Assembly (NCBI GenBank): GCA_013215445.1
Contig: JABSRA010000006.1
Location: forward strand, 1-64,000
Reading direction: 5' to 3'
Length of the DNA stretch: 64,000 nucleotides
Source of the DNA: Oceanospirillaceae bacterium
GTDB lineage: Bacteria; Pseudomonadota; Gammaproteobacteria; Pseudomonadales; Balneatricaceae
Made by a program: the position numbers and the translations under genes. Within the stretch, counting starts at the first letter, position 1; each line of letters begins with the position of its first letter. Below, in pieces: positions 27,334-38,027 of this stretch. The notes under the pieces were generated by a model, which saw only the letters and a program-made list of their open reading frames with translations, was not told where the DNA came from and searched no databases.

Positions 27334-27446
27334 GGGGGTTTTGTGTTGTTTTTGCTAAATTGGGTTTTTAGAGGGGGATTTGGTTACGGGCTAAAGGATT
27401 AGAATACTGAACTGATTTTTTTTTGAGGTTGTGGGTCAACTAATTG

Positions 27447-27882
27447 AAGTGCAGTTTCGACTGCGTCGAGTGCATTTCTTTTGACGAAAAAAAGAAACAG
27501 AACCAAAGAGGCTCTTTGCCATCCCTGGCACCGCCAAATTGCTTACATGGATGTAAGTACTTAGTTTTTGTCGGGAACAAAAAAACTGACCGTTCGTCCT
27601 GTACATAAAAATTTCGCCCTACTATTGCCGAGAGACTCCTCCGCTATTGATTAAATTCTCGGCCGTTCGCCAGGGACATCCATGTCCCACTCACTCTACG
27701 TGTCATCCTGACGCTTCGCTTCGATAATTTAAGCAATAGCTCCGGTGGCAATACAAGGGGTTTTGTGGCTCCGTAGGTAACTTTTTGTGTGCGGCGATTC
27801 TTTTATCTACAATTATCATTATTATTAGTGATATCAGCTGGTTTATTCATAAATTGCAGTGATAAAAAGAGTCCCATATCTT
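27447..27882 (+). repeat. Long inverted repeat, left copy (islet boundary)
   Basis: Matches the reverse complement of 36164-36504. From about 27609 to 27869 the two copies are about 95% identical by eye. The outer part 27447-27509 also matches, separated by about 95 bases (27510-27605) found only in this copy. It contains the shared tail GCCACAAAAC.CCTTGTATTGCC (reverse sense) of the dispersed repeat family and an in-frame lipoprotein-like start (27789-27870, lipobox LFINC). It bounds the 9-kb catabolic islet. Confidence 0.88.
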
Positions 27883-28234
27883 TCATTACCTTTTTGTCAC
27901 TAAGTAAAACGATCCAAATTGTTAATAATATCAAGCTTAAAAGACCTGATGGTCAGTTAATACAGGGCTGATGGATACTTATGAAATAATTGAAACAGAG
28001 ACTACAAGCGATGTGGTAGGTGAATATTATAAATTACTGACTTGCTAGCAGCAGGTTTGATACAGTACCAAGGAAGGTCACATTTGATCCACGGACATGC
28101 ATTTCTAGCCTACATCGAGCGGTATGGCGATAGTCTGAAACATCGTAATAAAATTATCCCTAGAAGTTTAGATTGAGCTGGTGATCTACCCCTCTTTTCA
28201 ACTGAAGTCATAATAGCAGTTTAACAGTATCATT

Positions 28235-28301
28235 AAGGAGGTAATTAACCATGCTTTATCAATATCATGTTGTCAGACAACATGATATTGATGTATGGTA
28301 G
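28235..28301 (+). other. Perfect ribosome binding site with a 16-codon leader frame over the operator
   Basis: AAGGAGG (28235-28241) stands 9 bases before ATG 28251, which opens MLYQYHVVRQHDIDVW and then a stop at 28301. The frame is encoded largely by the GntR operator palindrome. It could be a leader peptide on a longer transcript or the leftover start of a lost gene. Confidence 0.4.
28258..28292 (+). promoter_or_regulatory. FadR/GntR-type operator 1 (35-base perfect palindrome)
   Basis: A perfect 35-base palindrome centred on A28275 with core GTTGTCAGACAAC. FadR-subfamily regulators bind TTGTNNNACAA-type sites. A TTGTCA in the core, 18 bases before TATGGT (28293-28298), forms a plausible promoter, so the operator overlaps the -35. 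The same core and the same following TTGATGTA.GGTA occur at operator 2. Confidence 0.8.
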
Positions 28302-28328
28302 TTCGAACTTTATTTGGGAGTGTTAGGC

Positions 28329-30026
28329 ATGTCTGTATCGAGTATTTCAAGGCACGGGGGACAAATTCTTGTCGATCAACTGACTATTCAAGGATGCAAA
28401 AGAGTATTTCTGGTCCCTGGAGAAAGCTATCTACCTGTACTTGATGGGTTGCATGACTCTGATAATATTGAAGTTGTGGTTTGTCGTCAAGAGGGTGGCG
28501 CTGCCATCATGGCTGAAGCTCATGGTAAACTTACCAATCAGACGGGTGTCTGTATGGTGACACGCGGGCCAGGTGCAACGAATGCCTCATGTGGTGTCCA
28601 TATAGCGCATCAAGATTCTACTCCTATGATACTGTTCGTCGGTCAAGTAGATCGCAATTCCATTGATAGAGAGGGGTTTCAGGAAGTCGATTATCGACAA
28701 ATGTTTGCTCCCCTTGCCAAGTGGGTGGCGGAGATCAATGATATTGAACGTATTCCCGAATATATAAGTAGAGCCTATCATGTGGCGAATAGCGGCCGAC
28801 CAGGGCCGGTGGTTTTGGCCTTGCCCGAAAACGTGCTTTTCGCGCGAGCAGATGTTGCGGATGCAAAACCCGCAGTCAATGTTGAAGCTAAAGCGACGAT
28901 TCAAGATGTTGAGTCTATGCTGCAATCATTATATTTAGCCGAAAGGCCTTTGGTTATAGTTGGCGGTGGGGGATGGACTGCGCAGGCGACTATAGACTTA
29001 GCCACATTTGCTGAAAAAACAGGGCTACCAGTCGCCACTTCGCTCCGCTGCCAAGACTATTTAAATAATGCCGATAGTCACTATGTGGGTGACGTGGGCA
29101 TTGGCATTAATCCAAGCCTTGCAGAAAGTATAAAGACAGCCGATTTGATTATCTTAATTGGCTGTAGAATGGGCGAGATGACCAGTAGTGGTTATACATT
29201 ACTTGAAGTACCTAACCCTAAGCAGAAACTAATACATGTGTTTTCTGCTTCCGAAGAGCTAGGCAGTGTGTATCGCCCGGATATAGCGATTAATGCGAGT
29301 CAAAAATCTTTATTGAGCCAGCTTTCAGATATGCCCTTAAAATTAACTGATCGATGGTCCCAGTGGACAACAGCATTAAGACTAAATTATTTGCAGTATT
29401 GCAAGCCGGTCTCAATGCCAGGGGATGCCAACTTTTCAAAAATAGTCAGTGACTTATCTAATTATCTCCCCAGTAACTCCATCATTACTAACGGTGCTGG
29501 AAATTATTGCGCTTTTGTCCATCGCTTTTATTCGTTTAAGGACTATAGCACACAGTTAGCGCCGACCTCCGGCTCAATGGGTTACGGAGTACCCGCGGCG
29601 ATTGCTGCCAAATTGGAGAGGCCAGATGTACCTGTTGTATGCTTTGCTGGAGACGGCTGTTTCTTAATGCACGGTCAGGAGTTGGCAACCGCTGCTCAAT
29701 ATAACGTTGCTATCATAGTGGTGGTGGTAAACAACGGCATGTACGGCACCATTCGAATGCATCAGGAGCGTACTTATCCTGAGCGAGTCGTGGGAACTGA
29801 TTTACAAAACCCCGATTTTGCTGCGCTTGCTCGAGCTTATGGTGGCTATGCTGAAATCATTGATAAAACCGAGGACTTTGAAGGGGCTTTTAATCGGGCT
29901 CGAAATCAAAACTGTTTTTCGCTGATCGAATTAAAAGTAGATCCTGAAGCACTAACGGCCAATGCTTCGCTCAGTAAGATTATAGAAAGCTCTATTAAAA
30001 AATTATCAGTGATTGCAGATAGCTAG
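28329..30026 (+). CDS. Thiamine pyrophosphate-dependent 2-oxoacid enzyme (acetolactate synthase-like)
   Basis: 565 residues from ATG 28329, preceded by GGGAG; the earlier in-frame TTG 28314 is rejected. Three TPP-enzyme domains: N-terminal pyrimidine-binding with the catalytic Glu55 (CRQEGGAAIMAEAHGK) and VTRGPGATNASCGVHIAHQD, a central domain, and C-terminal pyrophosphate-binding with GDGCFLMHGQELATAAQYNVAIIVVVVNNGMYGT. It joins or decarboxylates 2-oxoacids. Because the catalytic Glu is present it is not a glyoxylate carboligase. Acetolactate synthase, sulfoacetaldehyde acetyltransferase and benzoylformate decarboxylase types remain possible; substrate unknown. Confidence 0.88.
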   Translation: MSVSSISRHGGQILVDQLTIQGCKRVFLVPGESYLPVLDGLHDSDNIEVVVCRQEGGAAIMAEAHGKLTNQTGVCMVTRGPGATNASCGVHIAHQDSTPMILFVGQVDRNSIDREGFQEVDYRQMFAPLAKWVAEINDIERIPEYISRAYHVANSGRPGPVVLALPENVLFARADVADAKPAVNVEAKATIQDVESMLQSLYLAERPLVIVGGGGWTAQATIDLATFAEKTGLPVATSLRCQDYLNNADSHYVGDVGIGINPSLAESIKTADLIILIGCRMGEMTSSGYTLLEVPNPKQKLIHVFSASEELGSVYRPDIAINASQKSLLSQLSDMPLKLTDRWSQWTTALRLNYLQYCKPVSMPGDANFSKIVSDLSNYLPSNSIITNGAGNYCAFVHRFYSFKDYSTQLAPTSGSMGYGVPAAIAAKLERPDVPVVCFAGDGCFLMHGQELATAAQYNVAIIVVVVNNGMYGTIRMHQERTYPERVVGTDLQNPDFAALARAYGGYAEIIDKTEDFEGAFNRARNQNCFSLIELKVDPEALTANASLSKIIESSIKKLSVIADS

Positions 30027-30436
30027 TTTAACAGTGACTGTGGGGCGGCGCGTGTAGATATGAGTGTCGTTTATCGCGCCTAGGTCAAATCAGCATGCTC
30101 ACCAGGACTTGTCTAGTTAGCTAAAAAAAATACCATTGGATTTTTTTTAAAAATCGCCAGGCTTTAGTGGGAAAATCTACTGTTAAACAGTGCAGGCATA
30201 ATAGGGCTGCGGGATCTGTTAATGGAGATGCTCCCGCACGCTGTGCCAATGAACAGTTTATTTGCGGGTGATTTTGGCTGGGTTGGAGTACGAAGTCATT
30301 CACGGCATCGATAAATTTTTAAGCAGCTAGAGCAGGTGTTAGCAAAACACTCATCACTTTGCAAAGTACATTACAGGTTGCATAAAGGATCTTGCTTCAA
30401 ACAGTAACAGTCCCCTTTTTTCCTCGCAAAATAGCG
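30027..30436. other. Convergent intergenic region in the islet
   Basis: 410 bases between convergent genes. A weak AT-rich hairpin (AAAAAAAAT.CC / GGATTTTTTTT, about 30122-30149) may end transcription from both sides. A 60-codon minus frame at 30121-30303 has no recognised similarity and is not called. Confidence 0.35.
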
Positions 30437-31174
30437 TTAAACGTCTCTTTCGTCAGCGCGTGCCAGTAAGCGTTCTGTGGATTTCTCAAAATGGCTTCTT
30501 GTTGCAAGGCGAGAAGACTCAGAATTAGCTTGCAGTATTTGTTCATGGATACTGGTTAATTCACTGCGAATAAGATTCACATCCGTTGCCATTAAATTCT
30601 TGATAGCGACAGAGCGCAGGTTTTCATTTAGTCGTGTATCTATCATTCTGATAATTTCAAGAAAGTGTATATTTCCAGATGCTTTGGCGATGGCCAGATA
30701 AAAAGAACGAATAGTATCCAAAAGGGCTTCTGTGATTTCATAGGAAGACGGATCAGGACTGTTTAAGATGCTTTCATGTAACTCAGTCAGTGCTGATAAA
30801 TCTTCACTGGTGCGGTTTTCCGCTGCTAGGGCCGCTGAGGCAGAAAGATTACTGGTTTGTAACTGCAATACCATGGCCAGTTCTTTACGCTTTTTAAAAC
30901 AGGAGCTACCAATTCTAAAAACTGACTTTTGATCAGGGTTAGTAACAAAAGCACCTACTCCCTGTTTCGACTGTATCAGTCCTTCAAACTTAAGTTGCGA
31001 GATCGCCTCCCTTACGACGGTTCTGGCTACTCCGAATGCCAGAGATAACTTTTGCTCGGTGGGGAGTTTGTCGCCAGCTTTTAAGGCTCCAGAATTAATG
31101 TCGTTGGAAAGTTTCTCTGCAATTTCATCAGGTAATCTACGTGGTCTGGCAATTTTTTCATAGATTTGAGACAT
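30437..31174 (-). CDS. GntR-family (FadR subfamily) transcriptional regulator
   Basis: 245 residues. The N-terminal winged helix (about 10-75) shows INSGALKAGDKLPTEQKLSLAFGVARTVVREAISQLKFEGLI. An FCD-type all-helical ligand domain fills about 95-235. Members sense a small carboxylate and repress catabolic genes. It is divergent from the dehydrogenase-TRAP operon, and two matching palindromes lie in front of the two arms of the islet, so it most likely controls the whole islet including itself. Confidence 0.92.
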   Translation of the reverse strand: MSQIYEKIARPRRLPDEIAEKLSNDINSGALKAGDKLPTEQKLSLAFGVARTVVREAISQLKFEGLIQSKQGVGAFVTNPDQKSVFRIGSSCFKKRKELAMVLQLQTSNLSASAALAAENRTSEDLSALTELHESILNSPDPSSYEITEALLDTIRSFYLAIAKASGNIHFLEIIRMIDTRLNENLRSVAIKNLMATDVNLIRSELTSIHEQILQANSESSRLATRSHFEKSTERLLARADERDV

Positions 31175-31361
31175 AATTTTGCTCTTTGCAAGTCGAATGG
31201 AGTCAGCGAGATCAACCGATGAAAGGCCTATATTCTAAGGCGTTTCAATTAAACAATTGATATATAAGCGTTCCATGCAGTAGGTTTGATGTTAAAAGGT
31301 TATTCATATTAATGATTTAAGAACATATTAACATACATTTAGATATTAGTAATAAAAACAT

Positions 31362-31374
31362 GTTGTCAGACAAC
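31362..31374 (+). promoter_or_regulatory. FadR/GntR-type operator 2
   Basis: GTTGTCAGACAAC repeats the core of operator 1, between the divergent regulator gene and the dehydrogenase gene. As at operator 1, TTGTCA is followed after 18 bases by a -10-like TAAGGT, and the spacer shares TTGATGTA. The flanks are less symmetrical here. Confidence 0.78.
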
Positions 31375-31441
31375 CTGTTCTTGATGTAAGGTACTGAGAC
31401 TAAGTCGAAATTTGACAAAATAATGCTGAGGTAGTTAGTAG

Positions 31442-32353
31442 ATGAAAGACAATCGCAAAGTAGGTTTTGTAGGGCTAGGGGGTATGGGCAGAGGTCTTGT
31501 TAAACATCTCCGTCTGCACGATATGCCTGTTTATGTTGCTGATACTCGCGCAGAAGCCGTTACCGATGTAGTAGAAAATTTTGGTGCGATTGCCTGCTCT
31601 GATCTCAAAGAAATGAGCCAAAAAGTTGATGTGCTTATGTATTGCGTCAGTACAGCAGAAGATATTGAAGGGCTAGTATTGGGTGAACAAGGGATCCTTA
31701 AGTATTTGTCAAAGGGGCAAATTGTTGTTGATCACACTACAACCAATCCGGCCACAGTAGAAAAACTGCACAAAGCTATTACCAAACAGGGTGCTAAATA
31801 CGCTGAAGCACCGATGACCAGAACGCCGATTCATGCAGACAAAGGCTGTGTGAATGTTCTGTTCGGAGGTGATAGTGATCTGTTGGAGGATCTACGGCCG
31901 CTATTTGATTGTTATGCTGAAAATATTTTCCACATTGGAGAAACCGGTCATGCAATTAAACTTAAGTTGATTCACAACTATATCGCCTTCGCCAACGTTG
32001 CTTCCTGGTGTGAAGGATTCGCTCTTGCTGCTAAGGAAGGTCTGGATATGAGCAAGGTGATCGATATCATTTCCGCAGCTGGCGGAAGAAGTGGCATGAT
32101 GGATCTTTATGGAGAGTCGACGTTAAAGAGAGATTTTCAGCCTTTAATGACACTCAGTAATGCTCAAAAAGATGTTAAATATTATGCTCAGTGGCTTGAA
32201 AGTGCTGGATTACCTGGGTTTATGGCTCAGTCGGTTCATCAAACATATGCAATGGCATCAATCATGGGACACGGTGATGAAGGATGTACCGCAGTTATAA
32301 AATATTATGAAGCTCTAACCGGAGTGGAAGCAAAATTACCTGAAGAAAAATGA
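31442..32353 (+). CDS. NAD(P)-dependent beta-hydroxyacid dehydrogenase
   Basis: 303 residues. N-terminal Rossmann motif GFVGLGGMGRGLVKHL, substrate motif VDHTTTNPATV, and the catalytic lysine in GHAIKLKLIHNYIAFANV (about residue 178). The family includes 3-hydroxyisobutyrate, tartronate semialdehyde and sulfolactaldehyde reductases. It is the first gene of the plus-strand arm and is followed by a TRAP transporter, so it handles either the imported compound or the aldehyde made by the TPP enzyme. Substrate not deducible. Confidence 0.9.
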   Translation: MKDNRKVGFVGLGGMGRGLVKHLRLHDMPVYVADTRAEAVTDVVENFGAIACSDLKEMSQKVDVLMYCVSTAEDIEGLVLGEQGILKYLSKGQIVVDHTTTNPATVEKLHKAITKQGAKYAEAPMTRTPIHADKGCVNVLFGGDSDLLEDLRPLFDCYAENIFHIGETGHAIKLKLIHNYIAFANVASWCEGFALAAKEGLDMSKVIDIISAAGGRSGMMDLYGESTLKRDFQPLMTLSNAQKDVKYYAQWLESAGLPGFMAQSVHQTYAMASIMGHGDEGCTAVIKYYEALTGVEAKLPEEK

Positions 32354-32434
32354 CCTAAATGATAGCTAAAAATTTACATAGCTATAGTTGTCTTACAACC
32401 TGATAAATAACCATAATAAAACAGTTGAGAGAAA

Positions 32435-33430
32435 ATGATGAAGTATATGAAGAATTTAACAAAAGCTATAATCATTGCGGGTGCAGCAATGAGTCCGTTC
32501 TTGGTAGTTAACCAGGCCAGTGCTGAGACAGTGCTTAAACTATCTCACTTTGGTGCAAAAACTCACCCATCACATATTGCGGCGCTGCAACTGGCAGAGC
32601 AAGTGAGCCTTCGAACAAATGGTGAGTTGACAATTAAGATCTATCCAGCGAATGCACTTGGCTCTCCTCCAGAGCAGTTGGAACAGACTATCCTAGGTGC
32701 TATCGATATGAACCTGCCCACTCAAGGGGCTTTGGATAAATACGAAAAAGCATTTGCAACAGTGATGAGTCCATTTGCTTTTCGAAACTACAAACATGCA
32801 CATGCGGTGCTCGATGGCCCATTCAATGACTGGGTTGCTCCAAAGTTAGAGAAAAAGGGACTAGTGCTGTTGTCAAATTGGGAATATGGTTTTCGCAATA
32901 TTACCAACAATAAGCGCCCAATTAATTCTCCAGAAGATCTAAAAGGCATTAAGTTGCGCACTCCACCTGAGATTCAGCTGGTTGCTGCAATGGAGGCTGC
33001 GGGTGCATCTGCCACGCAAATCGCCTTTCCTGAACTGCCTATGGCATTAAACTCAGGTGTGGTTGATGGTCAAGAAAACCCAATTAGTGTCATTTATCAC
33101 TATAAGCTGTTCGAAATCCAAGAGCACTTAGCGTTAACACGTCACTCATACAACAGCATGGTTAATGTGATTAATAAATCTTCTTTTGATCGTCTCACTA
33201 AAGAGCATCAGAAAATTCTCATGGAAGAAAGTAAGTCTGCTGGTCAGCTAATGCGGAAGTTGGTCTCAGAACAAGAAACTGACAATCTTGCAGCGATGAA
33301 GAAAGCGGGATTGAAAATCACAGAGCCGGATCTTGCTGCCTTTAAAGCAATGATGGGCCCCGCTTATGTTCGCATTGGAGAGTATGCCGGTAAAGAGAAC
33401 ATGGAAAAATTCTTATCAATGATTAAATAA
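32435..33430 (+). CDS. dctP: TRAP transporter substrate-binding protein DctP
   Basis: 331 residues. Signal peptide of about 30 residues (AIIIAGAAMSPFLVVNQASA). DctP fold markers include LKLSHFGAKTHPSHIAALQLAEQV, FGFRNITNNKRPINSPEDLKGIKLRTPPEI (in part) and the conserved Arg in KLRTPP that binds a carboxylate. It captures an organic acid in the periplasm for DctM/DctQ. The stop codon lies inside a four-copy TTAAATAA repeat, and a stem-loop follows. Confidence 0.92.
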   Translation: MMKYMKNLTKAIIIAGAAMSPFLVVNQASAETVLKLSHFGAKTHPSHIAALQLAEQVSLRTNGELTIKIYPANALGSPPEQLEQTILGAIDMNLPTQGALDKYEKAFATVMSPFAFRNYKHAHAVLDGPFNDWVAPKLEKKGLVLLSNWEYGFRNITNNKRPINSPEDLKGIKLRTPPEIQLVAAMEAAGASATQIAFPELPMALNSGVVDGQENPISVIYHYKLFEIQEHLALTRHSYNSMVNVINKSSFDRLTKEHQKILMEESKSAGQLMRKLVSEQETDNLAAMKKAGLKITEPDLAAFKAMMGPAYVRIGEYAGKENMEKFLSMIK

Positions 33431-33454
33431 TTAAATAATTAAATAATTAAATAA
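33423..33454 (+). repeat. TTAAATAA octamer, four tandem copies
   Basis: Four exact tandem copies of TTAAATAA, the first of which contains the dctP stop codon. Such arrays change length by slippage and could alter the dctP-dctM spacing. Confidence 0.9.
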
Positions 33455-33460
33455 TTGTCT

Positions 33461-33481
33461 GGGCTCTATTTAATAGAGCCC
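33461..33481 (+). other. Stem-loop between dctP and dctM
   Basis: A perfect 21-base palindrome, GGGCTCTATT, T, AATAGAGCCC. No T-run follows. It probably protects the dctP 3' end or limits read-through into dctM. Confidence 0.6.
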
Positions 33482-33511
33482 ATTATTACATATACCGTAA
33501 GAGTAACTGTC

Positions 33512-34798
33512 ATGCTGCCCCTCGCTATAATATTTGGATTAGTACTATTAATTTTTTTAGGTTTACCTATAGCAATCAGTTTAGGCTTTACAGCGGTTAC
33601 GACCTATTTAGCACTTGATATGGCATTTTTGTTGCAGATGCTGCCGCAGCGCATGTATGCAGCAACAACATCTTTTACGCTTCTGGCTATCCCGTTTTTT
33701 ATACTGGCGGGTAGTTTAATGAACACCGGAGGGATAACGGAAAGGATTTTTCGTTTCGCCGGCGCTTTGGTTGGGCACATAAGGGGAGGACTCGGGCAAG
33801 TTAATATAGTCGCTAGTCTTATTTTCTCTGGCATGTCAGGTTCCGCCGTTGCCGATGCGGCTGGTTTAGGGCAAGTGGAACTGAAGGCCATGAATGACAA
33901 GGGTTATGATCCAGTGTTCTCCGCGGCAGTGACTGCGGCATCTTCTACCATTGGTCCGGTTTTTCCACCCAGCATCCCCTTCGTTATTTACAGCAGTATT
34001 ACCGGAGTGTCAGTTATACAACTATTTTTAGCGGGTGTGCTTCCAGGGTTGTTAATGGCTCTAATGCTGATGGTCGCTGTTTATGTTGTTTCTGTCGTAA
34101 GAAAATATCCAAAAGAGCCGAGAGCTTCCCTTAAAGAAATTTTAATATCCGCTAAAGAATCGATTTTACCTCTGCTCACGCCGGTGATCATTATTGCCGG
34201 AATTATGGGAGGTGGATTTACACCGACAGAAGCAGGGGCAATAGCTTGCGTCTACGCGGCTTTTTTGGGGCTGTTCGTATATAAAGAAATCGTTATTGCA
34301 GATCTGATTCCCATCTTGTGGGAAACGCTCAGACATACACTGAGAGTAATGTTCGTCATTGCTGCTGCTGGTTTCTTTGGCTGGTTACTTATTCAGCAAA
34401 ATGTTCCTGATAAGTTAGTTGAATTATTACTGACTATAAGTGACGACAAGTACATCACGCTTGGCATTATCGTCGCTATTCTGCTGGTGCTTGGAATGTT
34501 TCTGGAAGGCATAGCAATTATTGTCATTGCGGTTCCGCTATTTATGCCAGTTGTAACCAGTTTAGAAATAGATATGGTGCAATTTGGAGTAATTATGATA
34601 ATGACGTCTATGCTCGGGTTGTTAACTCCGCCAGTCGGTATGGTTTTATTTGCTGTATCAAGTGCCTCAGGCGTATCCATAGGCGTTTTGTCGAAAGAGC
34701 TGTGGCCCTATTTTATTGGCATCTTTGTAGTTCTTATGATGGTGACATATATACCATCAATATCTACATTTCTTCCAAATATGATGATGGGAGGTTGA
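33512..34798 (+). CDS. dctM: TRAP transporter large permease DctM
   Basis: 428 residues from ATG 33512 (MLPLAIIFGLVLL). The longer frame from TTG 33455 would translate the stem-loop and is rejected. About twelve membrane segments. DctM stretches: IPFFILAGSLMNTGGIT, FSGMSGSAVADAAGLGQVE, TAASSTIGPVFPPSIPFVIYS and TPPVGMVLFAVSSASG. It forms the sodium-driven channel for the substrate bound by DctP. It precedes the small subunit gene, the reverse of the common P-Q-M order. Confidence 0.94.
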   Translation: MLPLAIIFGLVLLIFLGLPIAISLGFTAVTTYLALDMAFLLQMLPQRMYAATTSFTLLAIPFFILAGSLMNTGGITERIFRFAGALVGHIRGGLGQVNIVASLIFSGMSGSAVADAAGLGQVELKAMNDKGYDPVFSAAVTAASSTIGPVFPPSIPFVIYSSITGVSVIQLFLAGVLPGLLMALMLMVAVYVVSVVRKYPKEPRASLKEILISAKESILPLLTPVIIIAGIMGGGFTPTEAGAIACVYAAFLGLFVYKEIVIADLIPILWETLRHTLRVMFVIAAAGFFGWLLIQQNVPDKLVELLLTISDDKYITLGIIVAILLVLGMFLEGIAIIVIAVPLFMPVVTSLEIDMVQFGVIMIMTSMLGLLTPPVGMVLFAVSSASGVSIGVLSKELWPYFIGIFVVLMMVTYIPSISTFLPNMMMGG

Positions 34799-34800
34799 TA

Positions 34801-35310
34801 ATGAAAATATTAAATTATATTGAAAATCATGTGTTTAAGTTTTTATCGGGTCTTTCAATTATCGCTCTCTTGTCTATATTATTCCTGATCTTGATAAATA
34901 TATTTGGGCGTTACTTTGAGCTATATACACTCAGTTGGATAAATGAAGTTATTGAAATTATTTTTTCCTGGATGGTATTTATGGGTGCTGCGGCACTTTG
35001 GATGAAACATGATCATTTTCGTGTGGACTATTTAAGCAAGAAGCTTGCTCATACCAAGCTAGGGTGGTTATTAGAAGCCTTTATTGTGTCATCTTGTTTG
35101 TTTTTCTTGGTAATACTGACATGGCAAGGATTTATGCTGACTGTAAAAGCGGGTGCGATAACTCCGATTTTGGAAATTCCTACTTTTGTTAGTTATGCAA
35201 GTATTCCGCTGTCGGGTCTAATTATGTCTTTATATAGTATGCGTGATTTGCACGCATTATTTACTGGTGGCGAGAATGGTTCCGAAGCTCTCGTTATTGA
35301 TGATGTTTAA
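34801..35310 (+). CDS. dctQ: TRAP transporter small permease DctQ
   Basis: 169 residues from ATG 34801, with a strong GGGAGG ribosome site (34789-34794) inside the dctM end. Four hydrophobic segments in the DctQ pattern, with SWINEVIEIIFSWMVFMGAAALWMKHDHFRVDYL in the second and third. It partners DctM in the inner membrane. Only 2 bases separate it from dctM. Confidence 0.9.
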   Translation: MKILNYIENHVFKFLSGLSIIALLSILFLILINIFGRYFELYTLSWINEVIEIIFSWMVFMGAAALWMKHDHFRVDYLSKKLAHTKLGWLLEAFIVSSCLFFLVILTWQGFMLTVKAGAITPILEIPTFVSYASIPLSGLIMSLYSMRDLHALFTGGENGSEALVIDDV

Positions 35311-35331
35311 TAATAGAAGAAGGTTAATACA

Positions 35332-35655
35332 ATGATTTATGATGTTCGTACATACACTTGTCGTCCAGGTACAATTAATAAGCATCTTGCGCTGTATGAA
35401 GAATTTGGCCGCGATGTGCAGTTTAAGCACTTAGGTGAGCCGCTTGCATACTTGATAACAGAAACCGGTGCATTGAATTCCTATATGCATATTTGGGTAT
35501 ATGACAATGTAGAAGATCGTGCTGCTAAGCGAAAACAAATGCAAACAGACCCAGACTGGAAGAAATTCTTGAGCATCAGCTCTGAAGCTGCCTATTTAGT
35601 CAGCCAAGAAAATAGAATGATGACTCCCGTTTCTTTTGCTACAGCGAAAAGGTAA
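35332..35655 (+). CDS. NIPSNAP-family protein
   Basis: 107 residues, a single NIPSNAP (dimeric alpha-beta barrel-like) domain: MIYDVRTYTCRPGTINKHLALYEEFG, then GALNSYMHIWVYDNVEDRAAKRKQMQTDPDWKKFL. The function of bacterial members is mostly unknown; they often sit in catabolic operons. It ends the plus-strand arm of the islet, 21 bases after dctQ, and may act on the intermediate formed by the TPP enzyme or dehydrogenase; that is an inference. Confidence 0.88.
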   Translation: MIYDVRTYTCRPGTINKHLALYEEFGRDVQFKHLGEPLAYLITETGALNSYMHIWVYDNVEDRAAKRKQMQTDPDWKKFLSISSEAAYLVSQENRMMTPVSFATAKR

Positions 35656-36163
35656 CTAGAGTACGACAAAGTCGTTTGGTGTTAAGACGTATATCTGTAC
35701 TAGCTCAACCTGATCTGACCGTCAGCCGTTTTTTAAAGGAATCGGTCGGTTTAGGTTTAAGCTAGTAACACTAAGCTTACAAAAGTAGCCACTGCAAAGC
35801 ACTTTTCATTGGTGTGCACTTTTAAACTGCAAATACTTATCCATGTAAGTGGTTAAAACTATGGTCGTTTTGTGTGATTAACTTATCCTTACCCACAAAT
35901 TTATAATAGATAATACAAGTTTATCTATAGGGGTCTGAACAGAGCGGGCTAATGTTGGGCGAATTTTGGATATTGATAGTGATCCCGTTTCGCCGACTTG
36001 TTTAGTTCTTCCAGGCTGATTCACCCATATCAGTTGCTTGCTAATTCCCCTGTACCAGTTCAATTGCGCTGACTGTCCCTCTCACGTAACCGCACCAACC
36101 ATTTAATGGACACACTCCAATACAGTATGAAAAGAAACAAGATATGGGAGAAACAAGATATGG
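35656..36163. other. Gene-free stretch downstream of the NIPSNAP gene
   Basis: About 500 AT-rich bases without a supported gene. A 61-codon minus-strand frame at 35878-36063 was not recognised. Near the end, AGAAACAAGATATGG occurs twice in tandem (about 36133-36164) just before the right inverted repeat. Confidence 0.35.
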
Positions 36164-36504
36164 AAGATATGGGACAGGCTCTTTTTATCACTGCAATTTA
36201 CGAATAAACCAGCTGATATTACTAATAATGATGATAATTGTAGATAAAAGAATCGCCGTACACAAAAACTTACCTACGAAGCCACAAACCCCCTTGTATT
36301 GCCGCCGGAGCTATTGGTTAAATTATCGAAGCGAAGTGTCAGGATGACACGTAGAGTGAGTGGGACATGGATGTCCCTGGCGAACGGCCGAGAATTTAAT
36401 CAATAGCGGAGGAGTCTCTCGGCAATAGTAGGGCGAAATTTTCTTTGGTTCTGTTTCTTTTTTTCGCAAAAAGAAATGAACTCGACGCAGTCGAAACTGC
36501 ACTT
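36164..36504 (-). repeat. Long inverted repeat, right copy (islet boundary)
   Basis: Reverse-complement partner of 27447-27882. The inner end reads GATATGGGACAGGC, the head shared with the dispersed double-hairpin repeats. Further in, CCCCTTGTATTGCCGCCGGAGC is the tail shared with the copy at 37797-37935. The copy lacks the 95-base insert of the left copy. In the minus-strand sense it also encodes the lipoprotein-like start with lipobox LFVNC. Confidence 0.88.
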
Positions 36505-36540
36505 GAAATCTCTTAAAAGTCATTAGTCATGAAGTGCTTT

Positions 36541-36655
36541 GGGACAGGCGCTATTTAAGCCCGCCAAAATCTACATTTTTAGTGATTTTCACTAGAGAAA
36601 AGCGGTTTTCTAGATACATGCATCAGGCACATGCAGGCTACACTACGGAGCACTA
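36541..36655 (+). repeat. Double-hairpin dispersed repeat, copy a
   Basis: Starts GGGACAGGC. Contains AGTGATTTTCACT (hairpin 1) and CTAGAGAA...TTTTCTAG (hairpin 2, with one G-T pair), and ends near CACTACGGAGC. It lies upstream of the toxin-antitoxin pair. Confidence 0.85.
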
Positions 36656-36966
36656 CTGGTTTATGTAGGTTTTAAACAACTGCTAATGGTTTCGAAAACA
36701 GTAATTCACTACGCCAATGAGTTGTTTGTTCTCTAACCCCTGCGAAGTAACCAATACTCGCTTTCAGCTTCACTTGTAAAAACGTTTGGTAATGCAATAT
36801 TGCTAATCTACATATCTTGTATGGGCAACAACGTTGTTCGTACTATACCAAAGAGTTTAGCGAAACTTTAGTGTTGACTTATAGCTATCTTGATAGCGAA
36901 CTCGCTTATCGTATCTCTTTGGCTTTCTTTAGTACAATTCTCACTTTGGCAGTGCCTAATGGAAAC

Positions 36967-37089
36967 TAACGCTAGTATCTTTTGCGGCTGTAACAGAACG
37001 AGGTACGAGTGGCGTGAAAGCCGTCCCAGCAGCCGAAGGATGCGAAAACCATGCTCTTGATAGTTGCCTGTGATTGATACTAGTGCTAA
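36967..37089 (+). repeat. Long imperfect hairpin upstream of the toxin-antitoxin pair
   Basis: TAACGCTAGTATC (36967-36979) pairs with GATACTAGTGCTAA (37076-37089). An inner CGGCTG/CAGCCG stem lies at 36985-36990 and 37030-37035. The outer AACTAACGC also starts the hairpin downstream of the pair. The layout recalls integron attC sites, but the 3' core GTTRRRY is absent. Confidence 0.4.
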
Positions 37090-37125
37090 CATTTGTAGGT
37101 ACAAATAAATTAAAGGTAACAGATA

Positions 37126-37410
37126 ATGGACACTCGCATTCAATTTAGAATTGATGAAGAAACTAAACGACTAGCGCAGTTAATGGCTGAAAGCCAAGGG
37201 CGTACATTGAGTGAGGCATGTCGAGAACTTACCGTAGGTCTAGCTGAAGAACAACGGAAATCTATGACCCATGATTTGTGGTTAACAGAGCAAATAAATG
37301 CAGCGTTTGATAAATTTGATAGTGGTAAAGCTAATTTCACTGAGCATGATGAAGCTAAAGCACAAATGGAAACTAGAAAAATGAAGATTCGCAATAGAGC
37401 CAAGACATGA
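37126..37410 (+). CDS. Antitoxin of a type II toxin-antitoxin pair (RelB/DinJ-like, YacA type)
   Basis: 94 residues. The N-terminal part MDTRIQFRIDEETKRLAQLMAESQGRTLSEACRELT is a ribbon-helix-helix DNA-binding fold; the C-terminal half, charged and likely flexible, would wrap the toxin. It overlaps the toxin start as ATGA, the usual antitoxin-first order. It binds its own promoter in known pairs; no clear operator was picked out in the 36 bases before the start. Confidence 0.88.
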   Translation: MDTRIQFRIDEETKRLAQLMAESQGRTLSEACRELTVGLAEEQRKSMTHDLWLTEQINAAFDKFDSGKANFTEHDEAKAQMETRKMKIRNRAKT

Positions 37411-37685
37411 TTTTTTGGGAAGAAGAGTCACTAAATGACCGCGAAAAAATATTTGAATTTTTGTTCGATTTTAATCCTAGTGCCGCTGAAAGAACCGACC
37501 AAATTATAGAGACCAAAGTTGAGTACTTACTTGAACATCCACTAATGGGCGTTCAAAGAGATGTTTTTCGAGGACGAGTATTAATTATTCCGGAAATATC
37601 AATGATTATTTCTTATTGGGTTGATGGTGAAACTATTCGAATTATGCGGGTATTGCACCAAAAGCAGAAGTTTCCATCAGAGTAA
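37407..37685 (+). CDS. RelE/ParE-family toxin
   Basis: 92 residues, a typical RelE/ParE size. Family features: IFEFLFDFNPSAAERTDQIIETKVEYLLEHPLMGVQRDVFRGRVLIIPE and IRIMRVLHQKQKFP near the end. It is coupled to the antitoxin by a 4-base overlap. RelE-type members cut mRNA on the ribosome and ParE-type members inhibit gyrase; sequence alone does not decide. The pair sits between two direct copies of the double-hairpin repeat, suggesting acquisition as a unit. Confidence 0.88.
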   Translation: MIFWEEESLNDREKIFEFLFDFNPSAAERTDQIIETKVEYLLEHPLMGVQRDVFRGRVLIIPEISMIISYWVDGETIRIMRVLHQKQKFPSE

Positions 37686-37695
37686 GGAAGGCAAC

Positions 37696-37771
37696 TAACG
37701 CCGCAAACACCAATGACAAAACCAGAGAGAGCGGAGCGGCGATTTTGGCAGCTGCGTGATTTGCCTTGTTA
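37696..37771 (+). repeat. attC-like imperfect hairpin downstream of the toxin gene
   Basis: TAACGCCGCAAACAC (37696-37710) pairs with GTGATTTGCCTTGTTA (37756-37771), with one bulge. Inside, TGACAAAA pairs with TTTTGGCA. The size (76 bases), TAAC/GTTA ends and mismatched spacers resemble an integron attC site. No integrase gene is in the window. Confidence 0.4.
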
Positions 37772-37796
37772 ACCCCTAAATTTCAGAAGCTCTTTT

Positions 37797-37935
37797 GGGA
37801 CAGGCCTTATTAAACCCACCAAAACCTACATTCTTAGTGATTTTCACTAGAGAAAAGCGGTTCTCTAGATACACACATCAGACAAATGTAGCCTGCACTA
37901 CGGAGCCACCAATCCCCTTGTATTGCCGCCGGAGC
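37797..37935 (+). repeat. Double-hairpin dispersed repeat, copy b
   Basis: GGGACAGGC head, then AGTGA-TTT-TCACT (37836-37848) and CTAGAGAA-6 bases-TTCTCTAG (37847-37868), both perfect, then the tail CGGAGCCACCAATCCCCTTG and GTATTGCCGCCGGAGC to 37935. The most complete copy in the window. Confidence 0.88.
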
Positions 37936-38027
37936 GATTTACCAAATTGATGAGTGGAGCCACAGGCAGACTTTATGCTCCGGATTGAGTCTCTTTACCT
38001 TATGCTGACAGAATACAGCAGAGCCGA

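Follow-up and report, generated by a model that had tools for sequence, protein, structure and literature searches.

The TwoAYGGAY RNA is listed as a candidate RNA of the human gut, of gammaproteobacteria and of Clostridiales in one report (PMC2864571), and another proposes that it binds CsrA (PMC4333381). Small RNAs of the CsrB and RsmZ type, which sequester CsrA or RsmA, present GGA motifs in hairpin loops as a single dense array. Two further kinds of repeats are connected with mobility, namely the intergenic REP/BIME palindromes associated with RAYT, and the inverted arms that enclose the cargo of composite transposons. REPs are tens of base pairs long. Here, we describe a locus that partly resembles each of these systems. 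It lies in a window of 64,000 nucleotides, which is the whole stretch of DNA analyzed, from an Oceanospirillaceae bacterium (contig JABSRA010000006.1, assembly GCA_013215445.1; source genome G000), and was compared with six congeners (G001-G006) using, among other searches, a structure model of the genus repeat (R1). The locus comprises a catabolic islet between two inverted arms; the arms are dispersed structured repeats with a separate history, and the islet probably arrived at a variable site where such repeats abound.

Long inverted repeats around the islet, reported in the first-pass annotation, are real: the arms occupy positions 27444-27898 (about 455 bp) and 36148-36507 (about 360 bp), and their central 264 bp are 96% identical. 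The inverted-repeat comparison of the arms yields three pairs, 27608-27871/36179-36442 (264 nt, 96%), 27444-27509/36442-36507 (66 nt, 94%) and 27871-27898/36148-36175 (28 nt, 79%), and this likeness is not chance similarity. The left arm also contains an extra module of 98 bp (27510-27607, minus strand) with no counterpart in the right arm, and related stretches are present in some other copies of the repeat. Both arms are of the TwoAYGGAY type, with the structured strand being the minus strand in the left arm and the plus strand in the right one; as in many sister copies, the Rfam model RF01731 is matched over its whole length (model positions 1-168), including both GGA hairpins. The covarying structured core is located at 27609-27776 in the left arm (minus strand; RF01731 at 27630-27756, 36.1 bits; R1, 180.1 bits) and at 36274-36441 in the right arm (plus strand; RF01731 at 36294-36420, 41.8 bits; R1, 188.2 bits). 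Both RF01731 scores are under the curated gathering score of 43 bits, and sister copies reach 47.7 and 46.9 bits in G000 and up to 55.3 bits in G002. We assign the arms to the repeat family of the genus (R1), the best copies of which pass the RF01731 score, rather than to RF01731 as individual curated members.

The fold of the repeat, in which a long basal stem carries two hairpins whose loops contain GGA, is supported by covariation in the genus alignment. Among its 40 pairs, 24 are changed on both sides (118 cells), compared to only 4-9 pairs in slid controls, and 96.3% of the cells are paired; neither value was reached by any of 500 shuffles, although the fold tested came from the same alignment, which favors it. 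GGA is found in the loop of one hairpin in 29 of 29 sequences and in the loop of the other in 28 of 29. The copies can be considered candidate RNAs of the CsrA-binding type, with both transcription and binding being predictions. They share the GGA hairpin loops with the CsrA/RsmA-sequestering small RNAs but, instead of one dense array, provide two sites per core over many loci. Furthermore, unlike the TwoAYGGAY RNA as described, the structure here forms the core of a dispersed repeat that extends beyond it; at least 5 to 33 copies of this repeat were found per genome in five members of the genus, and they show a head-to-head habit.

The islet itself is the self-contained gene set that had been described from its open reading frames, and its content stands as described. 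It encodes a ThDP (TPP) enzyme similar to acetolactate synthases, of the NF006052/PRK08199 subfamily (28314-30026, plus strand), a GntR regulator with an FCD domain (30437-31174, minus strand), a dehydrogenase of the 3-hydroxyisobutyrate/tartronate-semialdehyde-reductase type that scores under every curated NCBIfam cut-off (31442-32353, plus strand), the TRAP solute-binding protein DctP (32435-33430, plus strand), the large and small TRAP permeases DctM (33455-34798, plus strand) and DctQ (34702-35310, plus strand) and a NIPSNAP-family protein (35332-35655, plus strand). The listed open reading frame of dctQ overlaps dctM, and its true start probably lies downstream of the listed one. Candidate GntR operators, both kept in G006, are located upstream of the TPP gene (28261-28300, palindromic) and of the dehydrogenase gene (31354-31393). 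The closest solved relatives of the TPP enzyme are acetolactate synthases, with glyoxylate carboligases lower down, those of DctP are assorted DctP proteins, and that of the dehydrogenase is a 6-phosphogluconate-dehydrogenase-type enzyme, with tartronate-semialdehyde reductase lower down; no substrate is assigned to the cluster. The spacers that separate the islet from the arms (27899-28188 and 35858-36147, 290 bp each) contain no clear gene when inspected by eye in six frames. As the first-pass annotation had noted for transposases, no transposase or recombinase was detected in a Pfam scan of 20 proteins, which covered the open reading frames of 90 aa or more except for a few that overlap.

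The same islet (28189-35857, plus strand) is present in G006 at a different locus (JABSQZ010000007.1), with 93.8% nucleotide identity over an alignment length of 7681 and 94.9-97.1% identity in its genes. Recent horizontal transfer is indicated because the 95-97% identity of the islet genes contrasts with a background between G000 and G006 of 76% for trpREG and 83-85% for the rpoB region. The islet was not found in the five other congeners, G001-G005, in drafts that are 87-98% complete, and its GC content is 41.9%, compared to 46.3% and 45.6% on its two sides. Judging from the patchy presence, the other locus in G006 and the identity excess over core genes, the islet is a horizontally acquired one. 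By gene content, the TPP enzyme, GntR, dehydrogenase, TRAP and NIPSNAP genes form a conserved cluster, as the full set of seven is found in alphaproteobacteria at three more loci among the 80 retained. A plasmid origin was considered and rejected, with no match in the plasmid collection to the two spacers (blastn, word 11) or to 27444-37700 (megablast).

In G006, the islet has no arms around it. Neither the arms nor the two spacers have a match in the 33 kb around its islet, the nearest listed repeat is about 68 kb away, and the block common to G000 and G006 stops about 290 bp inside each arm. No unit with arms was found at other loci, the armless islet of G006 being the sole other near-identical one. 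Thus, of the earlier proposal that the whole block moves as one unit, the movement of the islet is supported and the role of the arms as its vehicle is not. The proposal was said to fail if relatives all carried the block in one place and orientation with the repeats dispersed elsewhere: the repeats are indeed dispersed, but the block does not occupy one place in all of its carriers.

Conversely, G002 and G004 carry a repeat copy without the islet at the equivalent position upstream of trpR, the contig of G004 beginning at this copy; none was found upstream of trpR in G001 and G006 using R1. Since the islet of G006 is armless and the trpR-side repeat of G002 and G004 is islet-free, the arms and the islet have separate histories. 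Identity between the core of the left arm and the G002 trpR-side copy is only about 75%, although the two end at nearly the same alignment position, so that their orthology requires later conversion, the alternative being that each inserted separately at one site. As for the tail of the left arm, it fits this G002 copy best among 18 tails (70.8% versus 70.1% for the next), too small a margin to retain the idea of a hybrid left arm combining a resident tail with an incoming core. The gene order upstream of trpR is not conserved among G001, G002 and G006, and the contigs of G004 and G005 end close to trpR. The right flank (histidine kinase, GH3, Opp, GNAT) has a conserved counterpart in both G003 and G005, where the stretches examined contain no trp genes. 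Beyond the right arm, a further partial copy of the repeat is probably represented by a 5' leader recognized by eye (36531-36651, plus strand), which recurs as a direct repeat at 37786-37906 (81%); a RelB-like antitoxin gene, under cut-off, and a ParE/RelE-type toxin gene are located between the two leaders (37126-37685, plus strand), and a truncated repeat core follows (37897-37966, plus strand; 88.6% over 70 bp to a copy near trpR in G002). An integron was also considered and rejected: the attC-like sequence read by eye after relBE in the window shows no folding advantage over shuffled sequences (z -0.32). An attC-like sequence was also read by eye in G002. Of the seven genomes of the genus, two (G001 and G002) gave an integron-integrase match above the cut-off, and G000 had no such match; matches under cut-off occur everywhere, controls included.

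We propose the following scenario as the best explanation. The islet, a GntR-controlled cluster for TRAP uptake and catabolism, was gained by horizontal transfer. Recombination, whether homologous or illegitimate, would have placed it next to an already resident repeat in the variable, repeat-rich region upstream of trpR. Portable homology for this entry may have come from resident repeats, which may be homogenized by gene conversion. Both the entry route and a contribution of the repeats to it, if any, are inferences.

A less probable but possible alternative, which we regard with some doubt, is that two copies of a dispersed repeat lie next to the islet by pure coincidence and had no role in its arrival. 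The arms are two among at least 19 copies of the repeat in G000, as counted in an R1 search with at most 47 candidates scored, and at least 22 copies were found in G004, 30 in G006, 5 in G003 and 33 in G002. In a sequence search with 40 of 52 candidates scored, at least 45 pieces of G000 match the left arm, and such matches are present in all seven genomes of the genus. The copies are often close together (29 adjacent pairs at most 10 kb apart among 109 copies listed), and an opposite-strand pair within 9 kb arises in 29% of simulations that scatter 19 copies at random over the genome, so the bracketing of the islet is unremarkable on its own; the islet-free trpR-side repeats point the same way. 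Nor is the similarity of the arms specific to the pair, since the right-arm core, 97.0% identical to the left-arm core, is 96.4% identical to C80, a copy in G002. However, both arms belong to one young subfamily, which has recently expanded both inside and across species of the genus, and the trpR-side copy of G002 falls outside it; such a pattern suggests sequence exchange of the arms or their joint arrival.

Of 20 pairs of opposite-strand neighbors at most 10 kb apart, 19 stand head to head (p 4e-5), which is unexpected, and the arms follow this order. The count outside the genus, based on 90 rows, gives the same pairs as the 57 listed rows. The 3.7-kb head-to-head pair of G350, which was counted, probably has unlisted copies in between, where an open reading frame reads like repeat. 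Around kilobase-sized cargo, the head-to-head order prevails in the genus by 6 to 1 (p=0.125), leaving room for a functional bracket, and at the trpR locus such a pair spans 1.5 kb of other genes in G002 and 8.5 kb in G000. It is conceivable, though quite unlikely, that TwoAYGGAY, more than a lone RNA, forms the center of a mobile structured element whose head-to-head pairs spread together, settle at chromosomal sites (trpR, for example) and allow the cargo between the two copies to be exchanged through homologous recombination, while its many transcribed copies could jointly titrate CsrA. If true, this would tie the gain of cargo and the tuning of central carbon control to one repeat.

More improbable is a non-autonomous composite mobile unit, in which two outward-reading TwoAYGGAY elements, mobilized in trans, carry the intervening DNA. 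The head-to-head order, including the pairs at trpR, is as expected for such a unit, and the inverted arms around cargo recall composite transposons; however, no transposase was seen in or between the arms among the genes scanned, no target-site duplication was noticed at the outer ends, the islet is armless elsewhere, the block shared with G006 ends short of the arms, and the sequences beyond the partner copies in G000 and G002 have no window gene in common. A RAYT enzyme as the mover was also rejected: a divergent RAYT-like gene (337 aa, NF047646 under cut-off) adjoins one copy and fragments adjoin others, but a comparison of seven of the ten Y1_Tnp loci showed none of the five repeat motifs and no arm match, and the link stays weak because most loci with RAYT genes or fragments were fetched for their repeats. 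The likeness to REP/BIME systems is thus confined to palindromic intergenic repeats in both orientations, some of them beside a RAYT-like gene, whereas the unit is here about 360-450 bp and has no consistent RAYT link. Least probable is an invertible segment flipping the islet relative to trpR by RecA-mediated or site-specific recombination: the inverted order of about 330 bp of 95% identity, enough homology for RecA, makes inversion by RecA mechanically possible, but this homology is not special to the pair, its family being scattered over the genome, no recombinase is found among the nearby genes scanned, orientation need not switch expression because the cluster has its own candidate operators, and, against the first-pass suggestion of inversion, no genome examined has the block reversed here and no relative has it at this locus.

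The favored reading, in which the islet came to a variable site rich in repeats, raises two questions: by what route a catabolic cluster with no visible mobility genes passed from one species to another, and for what reason some gammaproteobacteria have many copies, paired head to head, of a functionally uncharacterized Rfam RNA. If transcribed, the copies would be candidate genome-wide CsrA decoys; if not, they would be structured DNA repeats offering portable homology.

Self-comparison of the window bears out the inverted repeats that the first-pass annotation reported, at 27444-27898 (left arm, on the trpR side, structured strand minus) and 36148-36507 (right arm, structured strand plus). 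The gene set it listed between them (TPP enzyme, GntR regulator, dehydrogenase, TRAP transporter and NIPSNAP protein) is present as well. The arms share inverted pieces of 264 nt (27608-27871 and 36179-36442, 96%) and 66 nt (27444-27509 and 36442-36507, 94%), with an innermost 28-nt piece of weak inverted similarity, and a 98-bp stretch of the left arm (27510-27607) is missing from the right. The further suggestion that the block is a mobile or invertible unit is unsupported in the form proposed, because each component is found without the other: repeats of this kind without the islet, and the islet without arms.

The stretch 28189-35857 aligns with contig C52 of the congener G006 (record JABSQZ010000007.1) at 93.8% over 7681 columns, the islet genes being 94.9-97.1% identical; the non-islet comparison of the same genomes gives 76% for trpREG and 83-85% for rpoB and its flanks. 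In G006 the islet lies apart from trpR, with trpEG on contig C12, and neither arm nor spacer was matched within 33 kb around it. The spacers are two 290-bp stretches (27899-28188 and 35858-36147) that separate the arms from the shared islet; no clear genes were found in them, nor any match in the G006 stretch or the plasmid collection. In the other five congeners, G001-G005 (drafts 87-98% complete), nothing resembled the TPP enzyme at more than about 30% identity. In a genome-collection scan, all seven islet genes were present in 4 of the best 80 of at least 582 confirmed loci, some of these 80 being cut by contig ends; the four are the G006 record, Phyllobacterium phragmitis, Paramesorhizobium deserti and Chelativorans salis. 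In the last three, which are alphaproteobacterial versions of the cluster (loci L142, L143 and L147), the GntR and TPP genes are co-oriented and divergent from the other cluster genes, so the window, by comparison, has its TPP gene reversed with respect to the GntR gene. The GC content is 41.9% in the islet and 46.3% and 45.6% on its two sides. We read the islet, from these comparisons, as a catabolic cluster acquired horizontally. The TPP gene and the dehydrogenase gene are each preceded by a palindrome (28261-28300 and 31354-31393, respectively); the two resemble each other, are conserved in G006 and are probably GntR operators.

The left arm matches at least 45 pieces in its own genome and DNA in all seven genomes of the genus. 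Both arms match the whole Rfam model of TwoAYGGAY (RF01731), the right at 36294-36420 on the plus strand (41.8 bits) and the left at 27630-27756 on the minus strand (36.1 bits), under the curated threshold of 43 bits, which some other copies in the genus exceed (best 55.3 bits). In an alignment of 29 of the 32 distinct extracted copies (three divergent or truncated ones were left out), the consensus fold has 40 pairs, 24 of them changed on both sides, and 96.3% paired cells, neither value being equaled in 500 shuffles, although derivation of the fold from the tested alignment favours it; with slid partners, the paired fraction drops to 31-48%. The compensatory changes are direct evidence for the fold. 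GGA occupies the loops of two hairpins in 29 and 28 of the 29 copies.

A covariance model built from the copies (R1) found at least 19 copies in the window's genome, 22 in G004, 30 in G006, 5 in G003 and 33 in G002, all lower bounds, as at most 47 candidates were scored per genome under strict filters; outside the genus it gave three weak matches, all in one of 55 genomes of the family's other genera. RF01731 itself was detected in 11 of 57 genomes. In a sample of 369 genomes from the class it turned up in 24 (over the cut-off in 16), own genome included in both counts, and at least two copies occur in 14 of the 24 positive genomes, with only seven candidates scored per genome. A second model, applied to one third of genome G444 (800 kb of 2.39 Mb), found two copies, forming one pair. 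This patchy multi-copy presence looks like that of a spreading repeat.

Judged by trpE (94%), the nearest relative is G002, which lacks the islet and carries a repeat copy upstream of trpR that ends at about the same point; islet-free G004 has one in the same place and orientation, at a contig start, and a G005 contig end near trpR resembles a repeat tail by eye. R1 found no repeat upstream of trpR in G001 or G006. Given the copies in islet-free relatives, the repeat on the trpR side is most likely older than the islet. The core of the G002 copy is about 75% identical to the left arm and belongs to another subfamily, so either gene conversion overwrote the window copy or that copy arose by a separate insertion. 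The right arm core (168 nt) is 97.0% identical to the left arm and 96.4% to a G002 copy (C80), and another copy in the window's own genome (C126) reaches 94.0%, although the species are 15-28% divergent in conserved gene regions; both arms are therefore members of a young subfamily. The partner copy in G002 lies 1.5 kb from the trpR-side copy, head to head, with two small genes between, so that one site holds a head-to-head pair with different cargo in two species. The small genes (L091:14268-15271) are a weak MreB match and an HTH protein, with an attC-like stretch between them. Since none of the window's right-flank genes was found in 20 kb around the G002 pair, except for distant GGDEF/EAL-type similarity, the partner copies need not be orthologous.

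An opposite-strand pair within 9 kb arises in 29% of simulated genomes with 19 randomly placed copies. In the genus (109 copies), opposite-strand neighbours no more than 10 kb apart form 12 head-to-head pairs and one tail-to-tail pair. Outside it the figures are seven and none, unchanged on recounting with 90 rows; pooled, 19 of 20 are head to head (two-sided binomial p = 4e-5). Gaps under 1 kb supply most of this signal (6/6 in the genus and 8/8 elsewhere, the latter being six pairs from the main count plus two found separately, and not independent because six come from one genus, g197, with genomes G240, G350 and G444), and gaps of 1-10 kb in the genus give six head to head versus one (p = 0.125). 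Same-strand neighbours within 10 kb make up 16 of 29 pairs in the genus, with one pair outside. Four pairs inspected by eye suggest that the basic unit is likely a double element, about 600-800 bp long with its halves head to head; a hypothetical insertion of the islet between these halves would yield exactly the bracket observed.

Beyond the right arm, a 121-bp direct repeat (36531-36651 and 37786-37906, 81%) flanks a RelB/ParE-type toxin-antitoxin pair, each copy resembling by eye the 5' leader of the TwoAYGGAY-type repeat family to which the arms belong. An attC-like sequence, also recognized by eye, lies immediately 3' of the toxin gene (37688-37782); its fold was unsupported against shuffles (z -0.32). 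A divergent RAYT-like transposase (337 aa), matching NCBIfam NF047646 under its cut-off, and its fragments were seen at L095:7719-8729 (G001), L023:1800-2807, L277:1859-2206 and L052:7913-8100, some adjoining repeat copies.

TwoAYGGAY, which is among the families listed in PMC2864571, has been proposed in PMC4333381, from motif matches, to sequester CsrA. The conserved GGA loops of the genus copies fit this proposed role. A limited literature search found no description of TwoAYGGAY as a dispersed or paired repeat. What is ordinary at this locus is, as we read it, a horizontally acquired catabolic cluster next to dispersed repeats; what is unusual is which repeat family this is and its head-to-head habit.
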